Shown: in pieces, positions 7,616 through 19,051 of the stretch
How the letters are laid out: the number at the start of each line of letters is the position of its first letter
Numbering within the stretch: the first letter of the stretch is position 1
NCBI RefSeq assembly: GCF_025354435.1
Contig: NZ_JANXMU010000077.1
Coordinates: 1 to 64,000 of the forward strand
Length of the DNA stretch: 64,000 bases
Origin: Rhodoferax sp.
Lineage (GTDB): Bacteria; Pseudomonadota; Gammaproteobacteria; Burkholderiales; Burkholderiaceae_C
Direction: 5' to 3'
The notes under the pieces: model-generated
Databases searched by the model: none
What the model was told of the DNA's origin: nothing
The model's input: only the letters and a program-made list of their open reading frames with translations
Program-made: the position numbers and the translations under genes

Positions 7616-8539
7616 TCACCGGCTATCCATAAACAACTCCGCCACCACCCCGCGCAGCCAGCGGCTGGCCGCATCGTGGTGGTAGCGCACATACCAGTAC
7701 TGCTTCACCGTAAACGGCGGTATCGGCAGCGGGCACGCCTGCACGCGCAGACCGGCGGCCTGGGCCAGGGTTTCACCAATCTGGCGCGGCAACGTGGCGA
7801 CCAGGTCGTTGTTGGACAGGATGGCGGCCAGGCCCAGAAAGCCGGGCAGCTCCAGCAGCACGCGGCGCTCTACGCCCAGGGCTTTGAGGGTGCTGTCCAG
7901 CAACTGGTAGCCGGTGCCCGAGACGATGCCGATGTGCGATTCGGCCAGATAGTCTTGCAGGGTGAAGGTGTTGCCAATGCGCGGGTGGCGGGCATTGCAC
8001 AGGCAGATCCAGTCCTGGCCGAACAGGCTTTGCTGGTAAAAGCCCGCCTCTTGCCCGGCCTCTAGGCCGCGCACCAGGCCCAGGGCCAGATCGGCCTCGC
8101 CGGACTGCAGGGCAGGCACCAGGCTGGCATCGATGGTGGCGGCCTCCAGCCGGACCTGCGGGGCCAGGGCGCGCACGTGCGAAAACAGGCGCAGCAGCAG
8201 GGTGACGTGGCTGGCGTCGGTCATGAAGATGCGGAACTCGCGCCGCGAGATGGCGGGGTCGAACACGGCTTCGGATTCGGACAGACGGCGCAGGCCCTCC
8301 AGCACCTCGCGCACGGTGGCGATCAGGCCGTCGGTGCGGGGTGTGGGCTGCATGCCATCGGGCGTGCGCACAAACAGCGGGTCATTGAACTGGGTGCGCA
8401 GCCGCCCCAGCCAGATGCTGACGGTGGGCTGGCTCTGGCCCAGTTGCTCGGCCGACTTGGTGACGCTGCGCGTGGTGTAGAGCAGGTCCAGCAAGCGCAG
8501 CAGCTTGGGCTCCAGCAGGGTGGGATCGGTGTCGGCCAT
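7616..8539 (-). CDS. LysR-family transcriptional regulator of the catabolic cluster
   Basis: A 307-residue LysR regulator. The helix-turn-helix region is at about 11-70 (LLRLLDLLYTTRSVTKSAEQ, QSQPTVSIWLGRLRTQFNDP), followed by a co-inducer domain (RREFRIFMTDASHVTLLLRL). The N-terminus resembles the NodD/PcaQ/LinR-like subgroup. It is divergent from the VOC gene at 8640. The 100 bp gap contains a palindrome, AATGC-N12-GCATT at 8550-8571, that recurs before the divergent amidohydrolase/reductase genes at 10.4 kb. This regulator is therefore the likely controller of the 8.6-18 kb cluster and of itself. The inducer is unknown. Confidence 0.88.
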   Translation of the reverse strand: MADTDPTLLEPKLLRLLDLLYTTRSVTKSAEQLGQSQPTVSIWLGRLRTQFNDPLFVRTPDGMQPTPRTDGLIATVREVLEGLRRLSESEAVFDPAISRREFRIFMTDASHVTLLLRLFSHVRALAPQVRLEAATIDASLVPALQSGEADLALGLVRGLEAGQEAGFYQQSLFGQDWICLCNARHPRIGNTFTLQDYLAESHIGIVSGTGYQLLDSTLKALGVERRVLLELPGFLGLAAILSNNDLVATLPRQIGETLAQAAGLRVQACPLPIPPFTVKQYWYVRYHHDAASRWLRGVVAELFMDSR

Positions 8540-8549
8540 AAAGAATCTA

Positions 8550-8573
8550 AATGCTGGTTATTGCAGGCATTGC
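8550..8573. promoter_or_regulatory. Candidate LysR operator, copy 1 (AATGC-N12-GCATT)
   Basis: Inverted repeat AATGC (8550-8554) and GCATT (8567-8571), with TATTGC in the 12-base spacer. The same geometry and the same central TATTGC occur at 10410-10431. It lies between the divergent LysR and VOC genes, which suits autoregulation plus activation. Confidence 0.55.
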
Positions 8574-8639
8574 GGTGTAAGTATAGGTATGCAGCGCACG
8601 GGATACTGCCAAAATAGCGGCCTAACCACCTACTCCAGC

Positions 8640-9521
8640 ATGCACAACCCATTCAACCGCGCCACCGAAGATGTGGGCAACATTGTCGAATTCGGCCACG
8701 TCAACCTGCGCGTGGCCAACCAGCAGCAGGCCATCATCTTCTACGCCATGGGCCTGGGTCTGACCCGCGACCCGTACCAGCGCGTGGGCATTGAAAACGC
8801 CTGGATGAACATCGGCAGCAGCCAGTTCCACCTGCCCACCGGCCGCGCCGAAGTACTGCGCGGCGTGGTAGGCCTAGTGATGCCCGACCTGGACGCGCTG
8901 CTGGCGCGACTGGGCCAGATTGCGCCGCTGCTCAACGGCACGCAGTTCAGCTTCGAGCGCCACGGCGAGGTGGTGCTGGCCACCTGCCCCTGGGGCAACC
9001 GCATCCACGTGCACGCGCCCGACCCGGCGCAGTTTGGCCCGCTGTTGCTGGGCATGCCGTATGTGGAGGTGGACTGCGCGCTTGGCACGGCGGCAGGGAT
9101 TGCGCGGTTTTACGCCGAGATTCTGGGTGCACCGGGCAGCGTGCGCGAAGACGGGCGCGGCGCGTTTGCACGCATCCCCATGGGCCTGTGGGGCTATCTG
9201 GTGTTCCGCGAAACCGCGCGCCCCCTGCCTGCCTACGACGGCCACCATGTACAAATCAGCGTGGCCGATTTCTCTGGCCCGCACCAGCGACTGCTGGCGC
9301 GCGGGCTGGTCACCGAAGAAAGCAGCCAGAGCCAGTACCGCTTCCAGGACATTACCGATCTGGATACCGGCCGCGTGCTGGCCACGCTGGAGCACGAGGT
9401 GCGCGGCATGCGGCACGCCTCCTTCGCCCGCCCCCTGGTGAACCGCAACCTGGCCAACCACGGCGATGCCTACGTGCCGGGCTGGGAAGATACGGCTTGG
9501 CTGCGGCCCCCTAGCCCGTAA
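8640..9521 (+). CDS. Two-module VOC (glyoxalase/dioxygenase-fold) protein
   Basis: A 293-residue protein starting at ATG 8640. An in-frame start at 8505 would overlap the divergent LysR gene and is less likely. Two vicinal-oxygen-chelate modules are seen: VEFGHVNLRVANQQQAIIFY from about residue 14, and PYVEVDCALG...FYAEILGAPGS from about 140, with ATCPWGNRIHVHAP between them. Metal-ligand-like His residues are visible (GHVNLR, HHVQIS). The fold covers extradiol dioxygenases, glyoxalases, isomerases and 4-hydroxyphenylpyruvate-dioxygenase-like proteins, so the reaction is not fixed. It ends 11 bp inside the convergent amidohydrolase gene. Confidence 0.8.
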   Translation: MHNPFNRATEDVGNIVEFGHVNLRVANQQQAIIFYAMGLGLTRDPYQRVGIENAWMNIGSSQFHLPTGRAEVLRGVVGLVMPDLDALLARLGQIAPLLNGTQFSFERHGEVVLATCPWGNRIHVHAPDPAQFGPLLLGMPYVEVDCALGTAAGIARFYAEILGAPGSVREDGRGAFARIPMGLWGYLVFRETARPLPAYDGHHVQISVADFSGPHQRLLARGLVTEESSQSQYRFQDITDLDTGRVLATLEHEVRGMRHASFARPLVNRNLANHGDAYVPGWEDTAWLRPPSP

Positions 9522-10341
9522 AGCCGAACAGGCGGCGCGGCGTGTCCCACTGCATGGCCTGCCTTGCCGCCGCATCGGGCACCAAGCGGTCGAACAGCGC
9601 CAGCAGAGGGCCGTAGTCGATGCGCTCGGGTGCCCGCAAAAACGGCCAGTCCGAAGCCCACACCAGCGACTGCGGCGTATACGCACCCACCAGCGCCTGC
9701 GCGAACGGCCCGGCATCCGAATACGGAAACGGCTGCACCGAGGTTTTCACCAAGCTGGAAACCTTCACTACCGCACGGCCCGTCTCGGCCAGTCCCAGCA
9801 GCGCCTGGAACCCGGCCTGGCCCACGCCCGCTGTGGAGTTGGGGCGGCCACAGTGGTCAAACAGCAGGCGCGCACCGCTGTCGACCAGCAGGGGTTTCAG
9901 GGCCACCAGTTCATCGTGCTGCACCTGCACTTGCGCCCACATGTCCAACTGGCGCAAACGCTCCAGCAAGGGACCGGCATCGCGGTAGTAGTCCACGCCC
10001 AGCAAAGCCACGTTCAGCGTCACACCCACCACGCCTGCGGCCTGCAGATCCTGCAGTTCCGCCAAGCTGGTGTCCAGCGGCACCACCGCTACGCCCTTGA
10101 AGCGACCTGCGCTGTGGACCACCGCGTCGAGCAGGCAACGGTTGTCAAAGCCATAGCCTGAATTGGGGCCAACGATCAGCGCATGGCTCACGCCGTGGGC
10201 ATCGAGCGTGTGCCCTAGTTGCGCGGCGGTGGCGATCTCGTGCCCAGCGGGCTTGTAGAAGTTGTCTTGCGGGTACGGAAAACGGGCCGGATCGAAGATG
10301 TGTACATGGCAGTCGATCTTGGGGTGTACTGGGGTGTCCAC
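9511..10341 (-). CDS. Amidohydrolase 2 family (2-pyrone-4,6-dicarboxylate lactonase-like) hydrolase
   Basis: About 276 residues of TIM-barrel metal-dependent hydrolase. The start is taken as GTG at 10341 because it follows a perfect AAAGGAG (10348-10354) and leads directly into the family N-terminus, PKIDCHVHIFDPARFPYP. HxH is at His12/His14; later motifs are LLFDHCGRPN and the catalytic-Asp region LVWASDWPFLR. Relatives hydrolyse lactones such as 2-pyrone-4,6-dicarboxylate in aromatic catabolism. It is divergent from the ketopantoate-reductase-like gene, with a shared palindrome between them. The exact substrate is unknown. Confidence 0.85.
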   Translation of the reverse strand: MDTPVHPKIDCHVHIFDPARFPYPQDNFYKPAGHEIATAAQLGHTLDAHGVSHALIVGPNSGYGFDNRCLLDAVVHSAGRFKGVAVVPLDTSLAELQDLQAAGVVGVTLNVALLGVDYYRDAGPLLERLRQLDMWAQVQVQHDELVALKPLLVDSGARLLFDHCGRPNSTAGVGQAGFQALLGLAETGRAVVKVSSLVKTSVQPFPYSDAGPFAQALVGAYTPQSLVWASDWPFLRAPERIDYGPLLALFDRLVPDAAARQAMQWDTPRRLFGFTG

Positions 10342-10409
10342 AGAATGCTCCTTTGGTTTTGTACCAGATTGTCCATCCTGAATCGACCTGCATCTACATT
10401 GCCAAAAGC

Positions 10410-10433
10410 AATGCAATGTATTGCCTGCATTGC
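10410..10433. promoter_or_regulatory. Candidate LysR operator, copy 2 (AATGC-N12-GCATT)
   Basis: AATGC (10410-10414) and GCATT (10427-10431) with TATTGC in the spacer, the same spacing as copy 1. It is embedded in a longer perfect dyad, GCAATGCA (10408-10415) and TGCATTGC (10426-10433). It lies between the divergent amidohydrolase and reductase genes. Confidence 0.6.
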
Positions 10434-10490
10434 ATTTACAGCATGATGACCAAAACCTACGATCTGCCTCCATAGATACGGGAGACGGTA

Positions 10491-11420
10491 GTGAAAATTT
10501 GCATTGTGGGCGCGGGGGCCTTGGGCTGTGCCATCGGTGGCGTGCTGGCGGAAGCCGGGCACGCGGTATGGCTGATCAACCGGGGCCAGGCGCAGGTGGA
10601 TGCCTTGCGCCACCACGGGCTGACCCTGCGTGAAAACGGTGTGGACCGCCAGGTCGCCGTGCACGCCGCCACCCGCAGCGCCGAGATAGACGGTACGGTG
10701 GACCTGGTCATCGTGCTGGTCAAGTCCTTCCACACCTTCGAAGCTATTGACTCTGCACGCTGCATCGTCGGGCCTGACACCGTGGTGCTGTCGCTGCAAA
10801 ACGGACTGGGCCACGAGGACGTGCTGGCCGAGGTAGTGGGCCGCCAGCATGTGCTGGCCGGTAAAACCTATGCCGGTGGCGTGATGCTAGCCCCCGGCCA
10901 TGTGCTGGTGGGCACCCAAGGCAAAGAAACCCTGATCGGCGAGCTCGACGGCCAGGTGTCCGACCGGGCCACCGCGATTGCCGCCGCCTTCAACCAGGCC
11001 GGGCTAATCACCACCGTCAGCAACAACATCCTGGGCACCATGTGGGACAAGCTGTTGGTCAACGTGGCCACCGGTGCCTTGAGCGGCATCACCCGCCTGA
11101 CGTACGGCGACCTCTACGCCGTACCCGAAGTCGAAGCCTACGCCGTGGCCGCCGTAGCCGAGGCGATGGCGGTGGCCAAGGCCGCAGGCATCCAACTGAC
11201 CAGCACCGAGCCGCGCCAGGCCTGGGTGAAAGCCGCCGACGGCCTGCCCGCTGCGTTCAAGGCATCCATGCTGCAAAGCCTGGAAAAAGGCTCGGTCACC
11301 GAGATCGATTTTGTGAACGGCGCCGTGGTGCGCTGGGGCGTGAAGTACGGCGTGCCCACCCCTGTCAACCAGGCCCTGGTGGCCTGCATCAAAGGCATTG
11401 AGCGTGGATTGCCCCGCTGA
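10491..11420 (+). CDS. Ketopantoate reductase (PanE/ApbA)-family oxidoreductase
   Basis: A 309-residue protein with a GTG start preceded by GGGAG. The N-terminal Rossmann motif is IVGAGALGCAIGGVLAEAGH (GAGALG at 7-12). The ApbA region includes VLVKSFHTFEA, SLQNGLGHED and the conserved lysine of MWDKLLVNVATGALSG. The family reduces 2-keto acids such as 2-dehydropantoate with NADPH. In this catabolic setting it may act on another 2-oxo or 2-hydroxy acid rather than in pantothenate synthesis. It is the first gene of a run of same-strand genes (10.5-18 kb) under a palindromic candidate operator. Confidence 0.85.
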   Translation: MKICIVGAGALGCAIGGVLAEAGHAVWLINRGQAQVDALRHHGLTLRENGVDRQVAVHAATRSAEIDGTVDLVIVLVKSFHTFEAIDSARCIVGPDTVVLSLQNGLGHEDVLAEVVGRQHVLAGKTYAGGVMLAPGHVLVGTQGKETLIGELDGQVSDRATAIAAAFNQAGLITTVSNNILGTMWDKLLVNVATGALSGITRLTYGDLYAVPEVEAYAVAAVAEAMAVAKAAGIQLTSTEPRQAWVKAADGLPAAFKASMLQSLEKGSVTEIDFVNGAVVRWGVKYGVPTPVNQALVACIKGIERGLPR

Positions 11421-11443: not shown

Positions 11444-11842
11444 ATGACCCAAAAATCTTTTGTAGAGCACGTCGCCATGCGCGTCCAAGACATCCAGTGG
11501 CACATCCGCTTCTTCTACGAGGTGCTGGGCATGGACGTGCGCGAGATCGACGGCCCCGCCGATGCCCCGAACCAGTACTGGACGCTGGGCGGCATGCAGT
11601 TGATGAGCACGCCGGGCTTCACTGCCCCGCCCAGCAACGACGCGGGCTGGCTGGCCCACCTCGGCATCATGGTGCAAGACCTGCCCGCCGCCCTGCAGGC
11701 TGCGCAGGCCTGGGGCGTGAATCCCCTGCCCCAGGGCAGCAACTGGCTGCAATTGCCCGACGGCCTGGCGATTGAGCTGATCCAGGCCAGCGGCACGTCC
11801 GTCGCCGACGTGCTCGCCATCAACCCCCGCGCAAAACTCTGA
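11444..11842 (+). CDS. Small VOC family protein
   Basis: A 132-residue single VOC module: FVEHVAMRVQDIQWHIRFFY at the N-terminus, then VLGMDVREIDGP, and a second half WLAHLGIMVQDLPAALQAAQ with LPDGLAIELIQ. His and Glu residues at the usual metal positions are visible (EHVAMRV, AHLGIMV, AIELIQ). Members act as glyoxalase, isomerase or epimerase enzymes. It lies 23 bp after the reductase and 8 bp before the MaoC gene, so it belongs to the same operon. The reaction is not assigned. Confidence 0.8.
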   Translation: MTQKSFVEHVAMRVQDIQWHIRFFYEVLGMDVREIDGPADAPNQYWTLGGMQLMSTPGFTAPPSNDAGWLAHLGIMVQDLPAALQAAQAWGVNPLPQGSNWLQLPDGLAIELIQASGTSVADVLAINPRAKL

Positions 11843-11850
11843 GCCCCACC

Positions 11851-12324
11851 ATGATCATCCCCACACTCCACTTTCAGACCCCCGAAAAATATTGGGACGA
11901 TGCCCAGGTCGGCGACAGCTGCACCAGCCCCACCTACCTCGTGACCGGTGAGCGCATCGATGCCTATGCCGAGATCACCGGCGACTACACCCCCGTGCAC
12001 GTGGACGAGGCCTACGCCAACGCCTCGCACTTCGGCTGCCGCGTGGCCCATGGGCTGATGGGCCAGTCGGTGGCCGACGGCCTGAAGACGCAGAGCGAAT
12101 ACCGCTTTCTGCCCGGCATGTCGCTGGGCTGGACCTGGGACTTTTTGCTGCCCATCAAGATTGGCGACGTGCTGCACGTGCGCTTCACCGTGGGCAGCAT
12201 GCGCGCCAGCAAAAGCAAACCCGGCTGGGGCATCGTGGTGCTGCCGTCCGAACTGCTGAACCAGCACGACCAGGTGGTGCAAAAAGGCGAACACCGCCTC
12301 ATGGTGCCGCGCCGTCCCGCGTGA
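11851..12324 (+). CDS. MaoC-like (R)-specific enoyl-CoA hydratase/dehydratase
   Basis: A 157-residue hot-dog-fold protein. The hydratase 2 signature is present: ERIDAYAEITGDYTPVHVDE, then SHFGCRVAHGLMGQS. The Asp of GDYTPVHVD and its nearby His are the catalytic pair in the family. A CoA-thioester substrate is expected, which fits the CoA transferase gene downstream. It is tightly linked to the preceding VOC gene. A 215 bp gap with structured DNA and a dispersed repeat follows before the CoA transferase. Confidence 0.88.
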   Translation: MIIPTLHFQTPEKYWDDAQVGDSCTSPTYLVTGERIDAYAEITGDYTPVHVDEAYANASHFGCRVAHGLMGQSVADGLKTQSEYRFLPGMSLGWTWDFLLPIKIGDVLHVRFTVGSMRASKSKPGWGIVVLPSELLNQHDQVVQKGEHRLMVPRRPA

Positions 12325-12365
12325 TGGAACAGCCCCAGGCTTGCGCACTGCGTGTCGCAGCGCCC

Positions 12366-12406
12366 CCCCCTTGCAGGGGGCAGCAGCAGCAGCCTGGCAA
12401 AGCCAG
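12366..12406 (+). other. GC-rich hairpins in the MaoC-CoA transferase gap
   Basis: The 12325-12539 gap holds two consecutive simple hairpins: CCCCC-TTGCA-GGGGG (12366-12380) and CTGGC-AAA-GCCAG (12394-12406). No T-run follows, so they look like structured mRNA or an attenuating element rather than a clear terminator. The remainder of the gap is the dispersed repeat at its 3' end. Confidence 0.5.
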
Positions 12407-12496
12407 CTCTGCGCTGTTCACGAAAAGGCTTCGCTGCGCTCGCCTTCGGACTGCAAAAGCGAACCCTTTGCTTCGACATTCATCGTTACTAATTTC

Positions 12497-12532
12497 ATAG
12501 CTACCTGTGTAGGCCGCACCTGCGCTAGAAGG
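12497..12532 (+). repeat. Dispersed hairpin repeat abutting the CoA transferase start
   Basis: ATAGCTACCTGTGTAGG then CCGCACCTGCGCTAGAAGG. The AGAAGGA at its right edge lies 6-8 bases before the ATG at 12540, so this copy appears to supply the Shine-Dalgarno of the CoA transferase. Confidence 0.75.
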
Positions 12533-12539
12533 ACATTTC

Positions 12540-13760
12540 ATGCCTAAAAACACCCAAGCCCTGCCGTTGGCCGGTTTCCGCGTGGTCGATTACAGCCACT
12601 TCCTGGCCGGGCCCTACCTGAGCCGCTGCCTGGCCGCCCTGGGCGCGGACGTGATCAAGGTGGAGCGGCCCAAGGCAGGCGATGCCGGGCGCGCCCACGC
12701 TTACTTCATCCAGGGCCAGAGTGGCTACTTTTTGCAGCAGAACATGGGCAAGCAGGGCCTGTGCATCAACCTCAAAGACCCGCGCGGCCTGGCGCTGATG
12801 CACAAGCTCACCGACGGTGCCGACGTGTTTGTCGAAAACTACCGCCCCGGCGCGCTGACCAAGCTGGGCCTGGGCTACGACGAGCTGTCCACCCGCAACC
12901 CCGGCCTGGTGTACTGCTCCATCTCGGCCTACGGCCACACCGGGCCGGACGCGCACCGCGCCGGATTTGGCCTGATCGCCGAGGCCAAGAGCGGCATCAT
13001 GGCCATGGTCGGCTCACCGGGCGAGGCACCGCCGCTGCTGCGTGTGTCGCTGGGCGACATGTACACCGGCATCCACGGCGTGGCGGCGGTGTGCGCGGCC
13101 CTGCTGGGTCGGGTGAAATCGGGCCGCGGCCAGCATATTGATTTGTCGCTGTACGACTGCCTGGTGTCCATGCACGACTACGCGGTGCAGTGCTACACCT
13201 TGTCGGGCGGCAAAGAAATGCCCGAGCAAACCGGCCATGACATGCCGCAAAGCACGCTGTACGGCGTGTTCACCGCCAGCAACGGCTACCTGGTGATTGC
13301 CGCACAGGTGGACGATGCCTGGAAGCGTTTTGCACTGTTGATCGGCGGCGAGGCGCTGGCGGCCGACACGCGCTTTCATACCTCCGCCGGGCGCAATGCC
13401 CACCGGGTGGAAATCCTGGCCCTAGCCAAGGCCTGGGTGGCCGCCCGCAGCGTGGCCGAAGTGTTGTCGGCGCTGGATGCCATCGACGTGCCGAGCGCCA
13501 AGGTGCAAAACATCGAAGAGGTCTTGAACGACCCGCAGATCGTGGCCCGCAACATGGTCATCGAACAAGACCACCCGGTGCTGGGCAAGATCCGCATGCC
13601 CAACCTGCCGTTCCGCTTCTCCGACTGCGACACCTTGCCCCAAAGCGTCGCCCCCCGCATGGGCCAGCACAACCGCGAGATCGCTGCGGGCCTGGGCTAC
13701 AGCGCCGAAGAGATCGACGCGCTGCTGGCGGCAGGCGTGCTCTACGCATCCGAAGACTAA
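12540..13760 (+). CDS. CaiB/BaiF-type (family III) CoA transferase
   Basis: A 406-residue family III acyl-CoA transferase. It opens with PLAGFRVVDYSHFLAGPYLS and RCLAALGADVIKVERPKAGD, both diagnostic. The catalytic Asp is in VSLGDMYTGIHG, and FVENYRPGALTKLGLGYDEL is also a family block. The enzyme moves CoA between carboxylates, commonly from succinyl-CoA or formyl-CoA-like donors, and would activate a substrate for the upstream MaoC hydratase. It is followed 11 bp later by a shikimate-dehydrogenase paralogue. Confidence 0.92.
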   Translation: MPKNTQALPLAGFRVVDYSHFLAGPYLSRCLAALGADVIKVERPKAGDAGRAHAYFIQGQSGYFLQQNMGKQGLCINLKDPRGLALMHKLTDGADVFVENYRPGALTKLGLGYDELSTRNPGLVYCSISAYGHTGPDAHRAGFGLIAEAKSGIMAMVGSPGEAPPLLRVSLGDMYTGIHGVAAVCAALLGRVKSGRGQHIDLSLYDCLVSMHDYAVQCYTLSGGKEMPEQTGHDMPQSTLYGVFTASNGYLVIAAQVDDAWKRFALLIGGEALAADTRFHTSAGRNAHRVEILALAKAWVAARSVAEVLSALDAIDVPSAKVQNIEEVLNDPQIVARNMVIEQDHPVLGKIRMPNLPFRFSDCDTLPQSVAPRMGQHNREIAAGLGYSAEEIDALLAAGVLYASED

Positions 13761-13771
13761 AAGGAAAAACC

Positions 13772-14581
13772 ATGACAGATCAATACGCCGTCATTGGCAA
13801 CCCTATCAGCCACACCAAGTCGCCGTTCATCCACGGCAGCTTTGCCAGCACCACGGCGCAAGACCTGGTCTACACCGCCATAGAAGGCCCGCTGGACGGC
13901 TTTGCCGCCGCCGTGGATGCGTTTCGCGCCGCGGGCGGCCAGGGGATGAACATCACCGCGCCGTTCAAGCTGGATGCCTTCCGCTACGCCACCGAACTGA
14001 CAGAGCGGGCCCGGCGCGCCGGGGCCGTCAACGCCATGAAGTTTGTGGGCGAGCGCGCCTATGCCGACAACTTTGACGGCGTGGGCCTGGTGCGCGACAT
14101 CACCCACAACCTGGGCTGTGCCTTGCAAGGCCAGCGCGTGCTGCTGCTGGGCGCAGGCGGCGCGGCACGCGGGGCGCTGCTGCCGTTTCTGGAACAGAAC
14201 CCGGCCCAGTTGGTCATCGCCAACCGCACCCTGGCCACGGCGCAGGCGATGACTGAGGGCACTTCGGCCACGGTCTGCAACTACGGCGATCTGGCGGGGC
14301 AAACCTTCGACATCGTCGTCAACGCTACCTCGGCCAGCCTGCGTGCCGAGTTGCCGCCCGTGCCCGCCAGCGTGTTCGCCCAGGCCCGGCTAGCCTATGA
14401 ACTGGCCTATGGCAAAGGCCTGACCCCGTTTCTGCGGCTGGCGCACAACGCCGGGGTGGCGCAGCGGGCCGATGGCGTGGGCATGCTGGCCGAGCAAGCC
14501 GCCGAGGCCTTTGCCTGGTGGCGCGGCGTGCGGCCGGACACTGCGGTGGTAATTGCCCAACTGACGATTCCGCTGGTGTGA
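13772..14581 (+). CDS. Shikimate dehydrogenase family protein, paralogue 1
   Basis: A 269-residue AroE-fold enzyme. The substrate-binding loop is NPISHTKSPFIHG (first Ser of the usual SxS replaced by Thr15, Ser17 kept). Catalytic Lys66 lies in NITAPFKLDAF, Asp102 in DNFDGVGLVRD, and the NADP loop GAGGAARG is at about 127-134. This is close to canonical AroE, so a shikimate or quinate-like alicyclic substrate is plausible. Its place between a CoA transferase and an SDR, with a second paralogue at 16.2 kb, points to a catabolic rather than biosynthetic role. It could still be the housekeeping aroE. Confidence 0.85.
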   Translation: MTDQYAVIGNPISHTKSPFIHGSFASTTAQDLVYTAIEGPLDGFAAAVDAFRAAGGQGMNITAPFKLDAFRYATELTERARRAGAVNAMKFVGERAYADNFDGVGLVRDITHNLGCALQGQRVLLLGAGGAARGALLPFLEQNPAQLVIANRTLATAQAMTEGTSATVCNYGDLAGQTFDIVVNATSASLRAELPPVPASVFAQARLAYELAYGKGLTPFLRLAHNAGVAQRADGVGMLAEQAAEAFAWWRGVRPDTAVVIAQLTIPLV

Positions 14582-14681
14582 TCGCTCCCGGCAACACCGT
14601 GCCGAAGGCATGCCCCGCCCGCCGCAAGGGGCTAGGCACGCGCGCCACAATGGCCCACTTTTAACCGTTGGAGACCCCGCG

Positions 14682-15458
14682 ATGGACCTGCATCTACGCC
14701 ACAAAAACGTACTCATCACCGGCGGCAGCAAGGGCATTGGCCTGGCCTGCGCGCAGTTGTTTCTGCACGAAGGCGCGCGCGTGGCCATCGTGTCGCGTTC
14801 GCAGGCCAACCTGGACGCGGCCAAAGCAGTGTTGGGCGACTGCTGGTGCATGGCGGTTGACCTGACAGACGCATCCGCCGCGGCCGCCACGGTGGAACGG
14901 GTCGAGGCCGAATTTGGCCCGCTCGACATTCTGGTCAATAGCGCCGGAGCCGCCCAGCGCACCAACGCCACCGACCTGACCCCCGCCGCCTGGCGCGCCG
15001 CCATGGATGCCAAGTATTTTTCGTACATCCACGTGATCGACCCGGTCATCAAGCGCATGGCGGCACGCGGCACGGGGGCCATCGTGAATGTGATCGGCAA
15101 TGGCGGCAAAATTCCCTCGCCCACCCACCTGGCCGGGGGTGCCGCCAATGCTGCCCTGATGCTGGCCACGGCGGGCCTGGCGCTGGCTTATGCGCCCCAG
15201 GGCGTGCGCGTGGTGGGGCTGAACCCCGGCCTGACCAACACCAGCCGCGTTGCCGAAGGCATGCAGGCCGAAGCTCAACGTGCCGGGGTGTCCGAGGCCG
15301 AGGCCTTGCAGCGCATGGTCGCCAAAATGCCCCTGGGCCGCATGGCCGAGCCCGAGGAGATTGCCGACCTAGTGGTGTTCGCCGCATCCGAGCGCGGCCG
15401 CTACCTCACAGGGGCCAACATCACGGTGGATGGTGCCGGTGCGCCCACGGTGGTGTAG
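14682..15458 (+). CDS. SDR-fold protein lacking the usual Tyr-x3-Lys
   Basis: A 258-residue short-chain dehydrogenase/reductase fold. The ATG at 14682 follows GGAG; in-frame starts upstream are less plausible. Cofactor motif TGGSKGIG is at about 13-20, and LVNSAGA and GLNPGLTNTSRV are present. The expected catalytic YxxxK is replaced: the aligned stretch PTHLAGGAANAAL has His149 and Gly153 at the Tyr and Lys positions, and the usual Ser region reads VNVIGNGG. It may therefore use another mechanism or not be a classical dehydrogenase. It lies within the catabolic cluster between the AroE-like and AroQ-like genes. Confidence 0.85.
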   Translation: MDLHLRHKNVLITGGSKGIGLACAQLFLHEGARVAIVSRSQANLDAAKAVLGDCWCMAVDLTDASAAAATVERVEAEFGPLDILVNSAGAAQRTNATDLTPAAWRAAMDAKYFSYIHVIDPVIKRMAARGTGAIVNVIGNGGKIPSPTHLAGGAANAALMLATAGLALAYAPQGVRVVGLNPGLTNTSRVAEGMQAEAQRAGVSEAEALQRMVAKMPLGRMAEPEEIADLVVFAASERGRYLTGANITVDGAGAPTVV

Positions 15459-15479
15459 CCTTGAATTGCTATTTAAAAT

Positions 15480-15513
15480 ATAGCTACTAGTGTAGGTAAT
15501 ATATGCGCTAGAT
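15480..15513 (+). repeat. Dispersed hairpin repeat, forward orientation
   Basis: ATAGCTACTAGTGTAGG followed by TAATATATGCGCTAGA in the 200 bp gap between the SDR gene and the AroQ-like gene. The rest of that gap shows no gene. Confidence 0.8.
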
Positions 15514-15659
15514 GCATATTTAATGCTTATTCTCAAACTTGCCGCAAGGGTAATCCCTAGGCTCCACATAATTAACCAGTTGGTACATTCACGGGTTTGG
15601 GCCTGCTGCGCTAGGCCTAACCGTTTGTATTTCCCCCATTTCAACGTCCAGGAAACCCC

Positions 15660-16109
15660 ATGAAAATCGTCATGCTCCACGGCATCAACCACAACATGTT
15701 TGGCAAGCGCGACCCCAAGCAGTACGGCACCATCACGCTGGACGAGATCAACGCAAGCCTGTCGGCCTTGGGCCAGGAACTGGGTGCCACGGTGGAGGCT
15801 TTTCAAACCAACAGCGAAGCCGCCATGTGCGAGCGCATCCACCAGGCCTACACCGACGGCGCCGATGCGGTGCTGATCAACGCCGGGGCCTGGACGCACT
15901 ACAGCTACGGCATCCGCGACGCGCTGGCTATCCTGACCTGCCCCATCGTCGAGCTGCACATGTCCAATATCCACGCCCGCGAAGCCTTCCGCCACGTCTC
16001 GGTGTTCGCCGAAATCGTCAAGGGCCAGATCTGCGGCTTTGGCGTGGACAGCTACCTGCTGGGCCTGCGCGCCGGCGTGTCGGCCGCCCAGGCAGCCAAG
16101 AGCGCCTAA
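15660..16109 (+). CDS. Type II 3-dehydroquinate dehydratase paralogue
   Basis: A 149-residue flavodoxin-like fold protein of AroQ size. The catalytic set of type II dehydroquinases is largely kept: Tyr22 in KQYGTITLDEI, Asn74 in INAGAWTHYSY, Glu98 and His100 in VELHMSNIHAREAFRH, and the Arg at 107. The N-terminal loop reads LHGINHNMFGKRDP instead of the usual LNGPNLNLLGTREP. The active-site lid therefore differs and the substrate may be a dehydroquinate analogue. It is flanked by two AroE-like genes, which suggests a quinate- or shikimate-like catabolic route. The start is supported by AGGAAACCCC before the ATG. Confidence 0.82.
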   Translation: MKIVMLHGINHNMFGKRDPKQYGTITLDEINASLSALGQELGATVEAFQTNSEAAMCERIHQAYTDGADAVLINAGAWTHYSYGIRDALAILTCPIVELHMSNIHAREAFRHVSVFAEIVKGQICGFGVDSYLLGLRAGVSAAQAAKSA

Positions 16110-16130
16110 AGGCCATTTGCTATATAAAAA

Positions 16131-16168
16131 ATAGCTACTTGTGTAGTATTCATATGCGCTAGAAGCCT
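16131..16168 (+). repeat. Dispersed hairpin repeat followed by a T-run
   Basis: ATAGCTACTTGTGTAGTATT then CATATGCGCTAGAAGCC, followed by nine T residues. With the T-run it resembles a weak intrinsic terminator between the AroQ-like and second AroE-like genes. Confidence 0.75.
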
Positions 16169-16207
16169 TTTTTTTATATATTTTCAACCCACATCCAAGA
16201 GCACAAA

Positions 16208-17041
16208 ATGATCAGCGGCAAGACAGAAATCATCGCCCACATCGGCTTCCCCACCCACGCCTTCAAGGCGCCGATGATCTACAACCCCTACTTCGACCCG
16301 GCCGGTATCGACGCGGTGGTGGTACCCATGGGTTGCAAAACCGAGGACTACCCGGCCTTTTTGAAGGCCGTGTTCAGCCTGCAAAACATCCGCGGCGCGC
16401 TGATCACCATGCCGCACAAGGTCACCACCGTGGGCCTGCTGGACGAGGTGTCGCCCACGGCCCGCATTGCCGGTGCCTGCAACGCCGTGCGGCGTAACGC
16501 CGACGGCAAGCTCATCGGTGACATGTTCGATGGCGAGGGTTTTGTGCGCGGCGTGCAGCGCAAGGGCTTGCAGGTCACTGGCATCCGCGCGCTGGTGGTG
16601 GGCTGTGGCGGCGTGGGCTCGGCCATCGCGGCATCGCTGGCGGCCGCCGGAGTCAGCGCCCTGCAGTTGTTCGATGCCTACACCCCGTCCATGGAAGGCC
16701 TGGCCACCCGCCTGCGCGAGCACTACCCCGCGCTGCTGGTCGAAACCGGCTCCAACGACCCCGCAGGCTGCGACCTGGTGGTCAACGGCACGCCCATGGG
16801 CATGAACGACGGCGACCCGCTGCCCATGGACGTGGACCGCATCGCGCCCACCACCTTTGTCGGCGAAGTGGTGATGAAGTCCGAAATGACCGCCTTTCTG
16901 CGTGCCGCCGTAGCCCGCGGCTGCCCGGTGCAGGTGGGCACCGACATGCTGTTCGAGCAGATTCCGGCCTACCTGGAATTCTTTGACCTGCCCACCACCA
17001 CGCCCGAAGTGCTGCGCGCGGTGGCCACGCTGAAATACTGA
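16208..17041 (+). CDS. Shikimate dehydrogenase family protein, divergent paralogue 2
   Basis: A 277-residue AroE-fold protein. Catalytic Lys71 (ALITMPHKVTT) and Asp108 (GDMFDGEGFVRG) are conserved, as is the nucleotide loop VGCGGVGSAIAASL. The substrate-binding SxS loop is gone: where AroE has a serine pair, this protein has GFPTHAFKAPMIYN. The active site is thus intact but the ligand pocket differs, suggesting another cyclic hydroxy acid. It lies 98 bp after the AroQ-like gene and before the AEC transporter. Function is inferred from family and neighbours only. Confidence 0.82.
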   Translation: MISGKTEIIAHIGFPTHAFKAPMIYNPYFDPAGIDAVVVPMGCKTEDYPAFLKAVFSLQNIRGALITMPHKVTTVGLLDEVSPTARIAGACNAVRRNADGKLIGDMFDGEGFVRGVQRKGLQVTGIRALVVGCGGVGSAIAASLAAAGVSALQLFDAYTPSMEGLATRLREHYPALLVETGSNDPAGCDLVVNGTPMGMNDGDPLPMDVDRIAPTTFVGEVVMKSEMTAFLRAAVARGCPVQVGTDMLFEQIPAYLEFFDLPTTTPEVLRAVATLKY

Positions 17042-17107
17042 TCGACCTGCTCTGGCTCGCTCTCCCCAGCATGGGAAAGGGGCGAGGAAGGGGCTGAACC
17101 CCATCCC

Positions 17108-18061
17108 ATGCTCCAAATCCTTGCCATTACCGCGCCCATCTACCTGATCATCGCGGCGGGCTATCTGTCTGTGCGCTACGGCCTGTTCAGCAAACCCGAC
17201 ATGCGGGTGTTGGGCCGCTTTGTCGTCAACTTCTGCCTGCCAGCGCTGATTTTCAACGCCCTGTCCAAACGCCCGCTGGCCGAGGTGCTCAACGGCCCCT
17301 ACCTGCTGGCCTACGCCGGTGGCTCGCTGGCGGTGGTAACGCTGGCCATGCTGGTGGGGCGGCGGCTGCGCGGGCAAACCATGCCGCTGGCCACCATGCA
17401 AAGCCTGGGCATGGCGGCCTCGAACAGCGGCTTTGTGGGCTACCCCATCGTGCTGCAGTTGCTGGGCCCCACAGCCGGCGTGGCGCTGGCGCTGACCATG
17501 CTGGTCGAGAACCTGCTCATCCTGCCGCTGTGCTTTGCCATGGCCGACAACGAGGGCCAGGATGCCGCCCGGCGCTGGCACCACACCCTGTTCATCAGCC
17601 TGCGCAACCTGCTGAAAAACCCCATGGTGCTGGCCATCCTGGCGGGCTTTGTTTTCGCCCTGCTGGACCTGCACCTGCCTGCCGTGCTGGCGCAGACCGT
17701 GCAGATCGTGGCCACTGCGTCCAGCCCTGTAGCACTGTTCGTCATCGGCGGCAGCCTGGTCGGCCTGAAGCTGGCCGGGATGCGCCGCGACCTGGCCTGG
17801 GTGGCCACAGGCAAGCTCATCCTGCACCCGCTGGCGGTGTTCACCTTGCTGTGGCTGCTGCCGCCCATTGCCCCGGAGCTGCGCGTCGCCGCCGTGCTGT
17901 TTGCCGCCATGCCCATGCTGAGCATCTACCCGGTGGTGGCCCAGAAATACGGGCTGGAAGGCTTCACCGCCGCAGCCCTGCTGGTGACCACCGTGGCCTC
18001 GTTTTTCAGCATCAGCACCTTGCTGTGGGCCATGCACCACCTGCTGGGCTGGACGGCTTGA
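17108..18061 (+). CDS. AEC (auxin efflux carrier) family transporter
   Basis: A 317-residue membrane protein with about ten hydrophobic segments in two halves. It opens with ILAITAPIYLIIAAGYLSVR and continues with family features RFVVNFCLPALIFNALS, MAASNSGFVGYPIVLQLLG and LLKNPMVLAILAGFVFALL. Bacterial AEC proteins are inner-membrane carriers for dicarboxylates such as malate or malonate. As the last intact gene of the catabolic cluster it may import its substrate or export a product. Confidence 0.88.
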   Translation: MLQILAITAPIYLIIAAGYLSVRYGLFSKPDMRVLGRFVVNFCLPALIFNALSKRPLAEVLNGPYLLAYAGGSLAVVTLAMLVGRRLRGQTMPLATMQSLGMAASNSGFVGYPIVLQLLGPTAGVALALTMLVENLLILPLCFAMADNEGQDAARRWHHTLFISLRNLLKNPMVLAILAGFVFALLDLHLPAVLAQTVQIVATASSPVALFVIGGSLVGLKLAGMRRDLAWVATGKLILHPLAVFTLLWLLPPIAPELRVAAVLFAAMPMLSIYPVVAQKYGLEGFTAAALLVTTVASFFSISTLLWAMHHLLGWTA

Positions 18062-18077
18062 GTTTTTTAATGAAATC

Positions 18078-18115
18078 GGCTTCTAGCGCATATTCCACAT
18101 ACACTACTAGCTATT
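18078..18115 (-). repeat. Dispersed hairpin repeat, reverse orientation
   Basis: GGCTTCTAGCGCATATTCC then ACATACACTACTAGCTATT between the convergent AEC transporter and the broken LysR gene. Confidence 0.8.
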
Positions 18116-18142
18116 AATTAAATAGCATTTTTGCGCCAAGGC

Positions 18143-19051
18143 TCAGCGGATGCGCAGGGTGTCGCCCAGGTAGGCCAGCAATCCATCGACCTTGGGCAAG
18201 GCTTGTCGGCTCAGTAGCCACACCAGATGCAGCGGCAGGCCCTCGGTGGCCCAGTCCGGCAGGATTTGCACCAGCCGACCGTCGCGCAGGGCATCGTCCA
18301 CCAGCCAGGTCGCCAGCTGCGCAATGCCGAAACCAGCCACCACGGCCGCCACCTGGGCCTCGGCGTGGCTGACCACCACGCGGGCCTGCACGCTGCGGCG
18401 CTCGGCCGGGCCCGCGCCCTGGGCAATTCGCCAGGTAATGGCACGGTCATCCGCCCCGCCGTAGGCCACCGCGTCGTGGTCGGCCAACCCGGCCACCGCA
18501 GTGGGCGTACCGCGCTGGGCTAGGTAGCTGGGCGCAGCGCAAAAAATCAGCCGCTCGTTACCCAGAAAACGGTGCCCCAGGTTGGTCGGCCAACGGTCTG
18601 GCCCGCCGATGCGCACGGCCACGTAGATGCCCTCCTCCACCACGTCCACGAAGCGGTCGGTGAACGAAATATGGGGCTGCAGCCCTGGATGCCGCTCGCA
18701 AAAGGCCAGCAGCTACGGCAGCACCTTCAAGCGGCCAAAGGTGGCGGGCACATCCACCCGCAGCCGACCCGAAGGCTCCAGCCGCTCCGCCGCCAGCAGT
18801 TGCTCTGCCGTCTCCAGATCGTCCAGCACCCGCACGCAGATGCGGTAGAAGGCGCTGCCCGCGTCCGTCAGCTTCAGGCGGCGGGTGGTGCGCTCGAAGA
18901 GCTGGGTTTTCAGGCGGGCCTCTAGCCGCGCCACCGATTTGCCGACGGCGGAATTGGTCTGGTGCAGGCGCAGCGCGGCAGCCGTGAAACTACCCGCGTC
19001 GGCGGTAGCCACAAACGCTTCAATGCCCTTGAGACGTTCGGAAGGAAGCAT
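18143..19051 (-). pseudogene. LysR regulator broken by one in-frame TAG
   Basis: Reading 303 codons in one frame gives a full-length LysR protein apart from a single TAG (top-strand CTA at 18713-18715). Upstream: LPSERLKGIEAFVATADAGS and the helix-turn-helix LHQTNSAVGKSVARLEARLK, ending RLKVLP. Downstream, without any gap: LLAFCERHPGLQPHISFTDR and VDVVEEGIYVAVRIGG. The stop falls where relatives usually have a short polar residue; a CAG-to-TAG change would explain it. It is divergent from the MFS gene at 19169, its likely former target. It may be a true nonsense mutation or a sequence error. Confidence 0.85.

Follow-up and report, generated by a model that had tools for sequence, protein, structure and literature searches.

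Two predicted operators of one LysR-type regulator in a Rhodoferax gene cluster

Does an inverted repeat that occurs in two divergent gene gaps of a Rhodoferax cluster mark the operators of the LysR-type regulator encoded beside one of them, and which genes would that regulator then control? The window, a stretch of 64,000 nucleotides of Rhodoferax sp. DNA, carries the pattern AATGC-N12-GCATT at 8550 to 8571 (site 1) and 10410 to 10431 (site 2). A position-by-position comparison found 16 of the 22 bases to be identical, with TATTGC at the same position in both spacers, and a preliminary description of this DNA was therefore correct in its coordinates, its count of agreeing bases, and the shared TATTGC. 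Site 1 lies 10 nt ahead of the start codon of the gene proposed to encode the regulator of both sites (7616 to 8539, minus strand), whose product was identified as a LysR-type regulator by its matches to the Pfam families HTH_1 (52.1 bits; cutoff, 26.6) and LysR_substrate (69.6 bits; cutoff, 28). On the other side of site 1 is VOC1 (8640 to 9521, plus strand), a glyoxalase-like gene whose control by LysR is uncertain; its homolog in locus L071 matched Glyoxalase weakly, and no Pfam family was found for the window protein itself.

The second gap separates an Amidohydro_2 gene (9511 to 10341, minus strand; assigned with Pfam), whose protein reached 110 of 500 bits against 4-sulfomuconolactone hydrolase, from the proposed target, a ketopantoate-reductase-like gene with ApbA and ApbA_C matches that we call KPR (10491 to 11420, plus strand). 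KPR is followed on the plus strand by VOC2, MaoC, CaiB, AroE, SDR, AroQ, AroE-like, and AEC-like genes (11444 to 18061), of which the second AroE-like gene and the AEC-like transporter gene fell under the NCBIfam cutoffs. We propose that KPR and this run up to 18061 are co-transcribed as one putative operon; there are gaps of approximately 200 bp ahead of CaiB and AroQ. TRAP transporter genes are present in related clusters (DctP and DctM in L013, 2220 to 4593; DctQ and DctM in L071, 16500 to 18332), and the substrate of the cluster may for this reason be an organic acid. A literature search for this cluster returned no paper on it, the sole match treating Salmonella coenzyme A and thiamine pathways. 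A dispersed repeat of approximately 60 bp was also noted at 18060 to 18150 and 15464 to 15524 of the window, and its scored copies in the same genome number at least 40, among 202 first-look candidates.

A scan with the LysR protein yielded 36 loci. In 26 of these, the regulator gene is directly divergent from KPR with no gene between them, and the single gap holds the same box; this arrangement, with one operator between LysR and the KPR operon, is the commonest in the relatives and probably the ancestral one. An amidohydrolase gene lies between LysR and KPR in the window, L070, L071, L004/L072, L005/L100, and L075, and VOC1 is also found there in all of them except L075, in which the VOC1 query had no match. 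(L004 is Rhodoferax sp. OV413; L072 and L100, on the same contigs as L004 and L005, were among the duplicate loci left out of the matrix-scan counts.) An extra open reading frame adjoins LysR in L070, L071, L072, and L075, that of L071 being GFO_IDH_MocA by Pfam and the others having been recognized by eye, while in L005 VOC1 is directly beside LysR, as in the window.

The exact pattern was observed twice in the window versus 0.14 times expected, a number reached by 1 of 100 shuffles. The preliminary description had proposed scanning the genome for it, and the scan recovered both sites and also a third place, C59:22370, which was set aside, its spacer being unrelated and the place being absent from the output of the R1 profile described below. 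Among the related loci, both exact sites are present in L004/L072 and only site 1 in L070 and L071, and the exact pattern is absent from all 26 LysR-KPR gaps, for which reason it was rejected as the conserved operator. The form conserved in these gaps is approximately AATG-N4-CAATA-N5-CATT in the same 22-bp register, the exact pattern being narrower than this conserved element. An alternative register, CAAT-N7-ATTG, was rejected because blind motif discovery returned the register of AATGC-N12-GCATT.

That discovery, which was begun from random starting points in 23 LysR-KPR gaps (the 26 less the near-identical L019, L025, and L031), converged on AATGGATACAATACACTGCATT, in register with the 22-mer first described, and its motif ranked site 2 first (25.05) and site 1 second (21.19) in the window, with the third place at 18.4. 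A 37-bp matrix was also built, from a hand-written starting consensus, on 29 LysR gaps (the 26 LysR-KPR gaps plus L010, L012, and L033), with the window excluded. It gave its best score in the window, 42.75 bits, to the frame of site 2 (10404 to 10440, minus strand) and its second best, 22.2 bits, to that of site 1 (8544 to 8580, minus strand), the next nonoverlapping place scoring 13.35. The best scores in 100 dinucleotide shuffles averaged 9.6 and reached a maximum of 23.2, so that the matrix score of site 1, taken alone, is within reach of chance. By eye, a candidate T-N11-A box, TGCAATGCAGGCA, could be seen inside the 37-mer of site 2; it is not clear in site 1, which has C in place of the T. 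The box was found in the LysR-KPR gap of six loci outside both training sets (L115, L116, L120, L121, L166, and L167; 26.6 to 45.1 bits), and few matrix matches occurred elsewhere in the 959 kb scanned: one in L079, two in L080, and one each in L024 and L030. Those at L024 10891 (26.2 bits) and L030 4993 (25.6 bits) are additional box-like sites located immediately 3' of LysR, and they may face a different target gene. In the Pseudacidovorax-type loci L016, L019, L023, L025, L026, L029, and L031, the arms are changed to CATGGG...CCATG-like forms or GCATG with the spacing kept, even though their LysR recognition region has hardly changed.

Specificity was assessed with R1, a sequence-only profile made from 24 operators that included same-genus relatives and not the window. 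Only two matches with an E value of <0.01 were found in the 4.66-Mb genome to which the window belongs, namely, 10404 to 10440 (E = 5.6e-7) and 8544 to 8572 (E = 0.002); the next, C78:13725 (E = 0.32; 16.0 bits by matrix), was left as chance. Across 399 family genomes, R1 gave 25 matches in 18 genomes at an E value of ≤0.01, and LysR orthologs were found in 35 of the 399 at an E value of ≤1e-90. An ortholog was present in 17 of the 18 genomes with an R1 match (Fisher P = 2e-19), a count that is not wholly independent of training, as G131, G044, and G175 correspond to the training loci L006, L008, and L020. Nineteen of the 25 matches are 5 to 80 nt upstream of a LysR match, four are before KPR (G000, G162, G243, and G311), one is just downstream of LysR (G017), and one (G284; E = 0.008) is not linked to LysR. 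No R1 match at an E value of ≤0.01 was obtained in 18 of the 35 LysR genomes, stricter filters losing weak matches in large searches. Neither a LysR ortholog nor an R1 match was found in G370, which is of the same genus, and no box was found in L077, whose LysR homolog is 57% identical.

If the box is linked to control by LysR, it should be found at each of LysR and KPR wherever the two are separated, and this expectation mostly held. In L010, which has a different rearrangement from that of the window, boxes precede both LysR (30.7 bits) and KPR (25.9 bits); both were in the R1 training set and the LysR-side box alone in that of the matrix. G399 carries LysR on contig C846 and an R1 match (E = 0.009) in the KPR/amidohydrolase gap of contig C911 (L161), where the matrix score was below 14 bits despite the R1 match. 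No KPR box above 16 bits was found in L075 by matrix.

The relation of site 2 to the KPR promoter was derived from 33 KPR-facing gaps, which, when aligned on the box, are gapless through the box, the -35 hexamer, the 17-bp spacer, and the -10 hexamer. The proposed -35 element in the window is TTTACA (10435 to 10440, plus strand) and the proposed -10 element, 17 bp away, is TACGAT (10458 to 10463, plus strand), both with checked positions. In the -10 hexamers of the 33 gaps, positions 2 and 5 are A in all and position 6 is T in 97%, L034 being without that T. The box of site 2 is just upstream of the KPR -35 element and touches it. By sequence comparison, the element is thus an inverted repeat upstream of the -35 hexamer of its proposed target and is conserved together with the regulator, as is typical of LysR-type operators. 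Transcription of KPR would start near 10470, which puts the center of the 22-bp core near -50. In the portions of two papers that were available, -65 is given as the usual approximate position of the LysR recognition site, with the activation sites near -35 and -10 (PMC8407307, PMC4730206); the element at site 2, being centered closer to the start, therefore probably reaches into the activation region. In the mechanism that we infer, including activation rather than repression and the involvement of an inducer, site 2 would be the target operator, at which inducer-bound LysR would activate KPR together with the downstream genes.

Equivalents of site 1 occupy the corresponding position in L004, L070, L071, and L005. 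The core has the same sequence in the window, L004, and L070 and a single change in L071, and the neighboring bases differ. In L004, L070, and L071, the outward promoter at site 1 retains CCTACGAT, with the same spacing from the box that the KPR promoter shows; in these three loci it matches the genome's own KPR promoter at 35 to 38 of 55 bases, versus 27 of 55 in the window. Such likeness fits a duplicated operator-promoter, shared function being an alternative explanation. The place of the -10 element facing VOC1 reads ACGGGA in the window, whereas L005 keeps TAGGAT there, and an apparent 3'-terminal fragment of a Gfo/Idh/MocA gene, recognized by eye against the gene ends in L070 to L072, is present as a putative deletion scar at 8595 to 8617 (plus strand). 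These two features indicate that a deletion most likely took both the Gfo/Idh/MocA gene and the TACGAT -10 element facing VOC1. Relocation of that gene was not supported, the best match in the same genome being only 40% identical. With the -10 element deleted, it is doubtful whether site 1 still governs VOC1 in this genome; the LysR-dependent promoter of VOC1 may be gone, and site 1 would most likely serve lysR autoregulation.

From conservation, genome-wide specificity, and co-occurrence with LysR, we consider it very likely that both sites are binding sites of the LysR protein encoded at 7616 to 8539, with site 2 as the KPR operator and site 1 serving autoregulation of lysR. A role of the conserved bases as mere promoter elements of lysR and KPR (-35, -10, and an A+T-rich leader) would account for the contact of the box with the KPR -35 element, and TACACT inside the box could be a lysR -10 element in relatives; this explanation is nevertheless improbable, as the KPR hexamers do not include the AATG...CATT core, which is dyad symmetric, and the box is rare genome-wide, is tied to LysR, and stays beside LysR and KPR when these are apart. 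Even less probable is binding by a different LysR-type protein, such as the paralog beside CaiB in relatives: similar boxes do occur at the paralog loci L101 and L102, but this genome has one match to the window LysR at an E value of ≤1e-80, and the boxes adjoin that LysR. That the likeness of the two sites arose by chance is hardly credible, although the score of site 1 is near the top of the shuffle range, since blind discovery placed the sites at ranks one and two and equivalents of site 1 occur at the corresponding position in four relatives.

Binding of both sites by this LysR thus remains the preferred reading, and the comparisons made here give good support to the predicted control of the KPR operon and of lysR itself. 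The earlier proposal that the LysR at 7616 controls both divergent promoters holds for the predicted use of the sites and is doubtful for VOC1. Its further claim that the sites define the regulon borders does not hold, since site 2 is internal and heads the KPR run, which continues to approximately 18061. The regulon here most likely comprises lysR plus the KPR run; whether VOC1 and the amidohydrolase gene belong to it is uncertain.

In keeping with a conserved operator, the LysR orthologs differ little in their helix-turn-helix region, where the recognition region reads SQPTVSIW or a close variant of it. The nearest solved structures, 2uye and 1utb, which we take to be those of DntR, matched the window LysR over its full length (E = 1.7e-48), a likeness that does not imply a shared effector or shared target genes. 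The best NCBIfam match was BsrA (NF050187), at 172.2 bits versus a cutoff of 480; the window LysR thus shares the LysR family with BsrA of Pseudomonas aeruginosa and scores far under the cutoff for BsrA itself. BsrA binds hundreds of places, according to the part of its description available (PMC8407307), in contrast to the two predicted sites found for the window LysR. A parallel in layout is given by CatR/BenM of the Betaproteobacteria, in which, according to the available part of the source, regulator and target have divergent LysR-type promoters that contain recognition and activation sites (PMC6449761). As far as that part goes, CatR/BenM and the window have in common a regulator divergent from its target, a shared inverted-repeat operator reaching the -35 element, and predicted autoregulation; they differ in motif (AATG-N14-CATT in the window versus the ATACC-N5-GGTAT type) and in that the window has the operator twice, flanking an inserted module. 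The LysR paralog of L101 and L102, approximately 60% identical, lies beside CaiB and has similar boxes before LysR and CaiB (9673 and 10720 in L101; 8037 and 9098 in L102), which suggests a sister regulon.

In the Rhodoferax line, a module of VOC1 and the amidohydrolase gene, joined in several species by Gfo/Idh/MocA, lies between the regulator and its target, with a predicted operator copy on each side. We offer tentatively, with a little less than even confidence, a rewiring of the regulon in steps, in which the module entered, the operator-promoter was duplicated, and one outward promoter is being lost with the core spared; the rule of two boxes applies in L010 as well. As a form of bacterial gene control, the system is ordinary and of a familiar type; only the duplication of the operator on either side of an inserted module sets it apart. 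The analysis provides a well-defined predicted operator and a two-site regulon for an uncharacterized LysR regulator found across the family. The predicted operator makes the inducer and the pathway of the cluster testable by a simple reporter, and the related loci form a small natural series on how operators get copied when genes enter between a regulator and its target.
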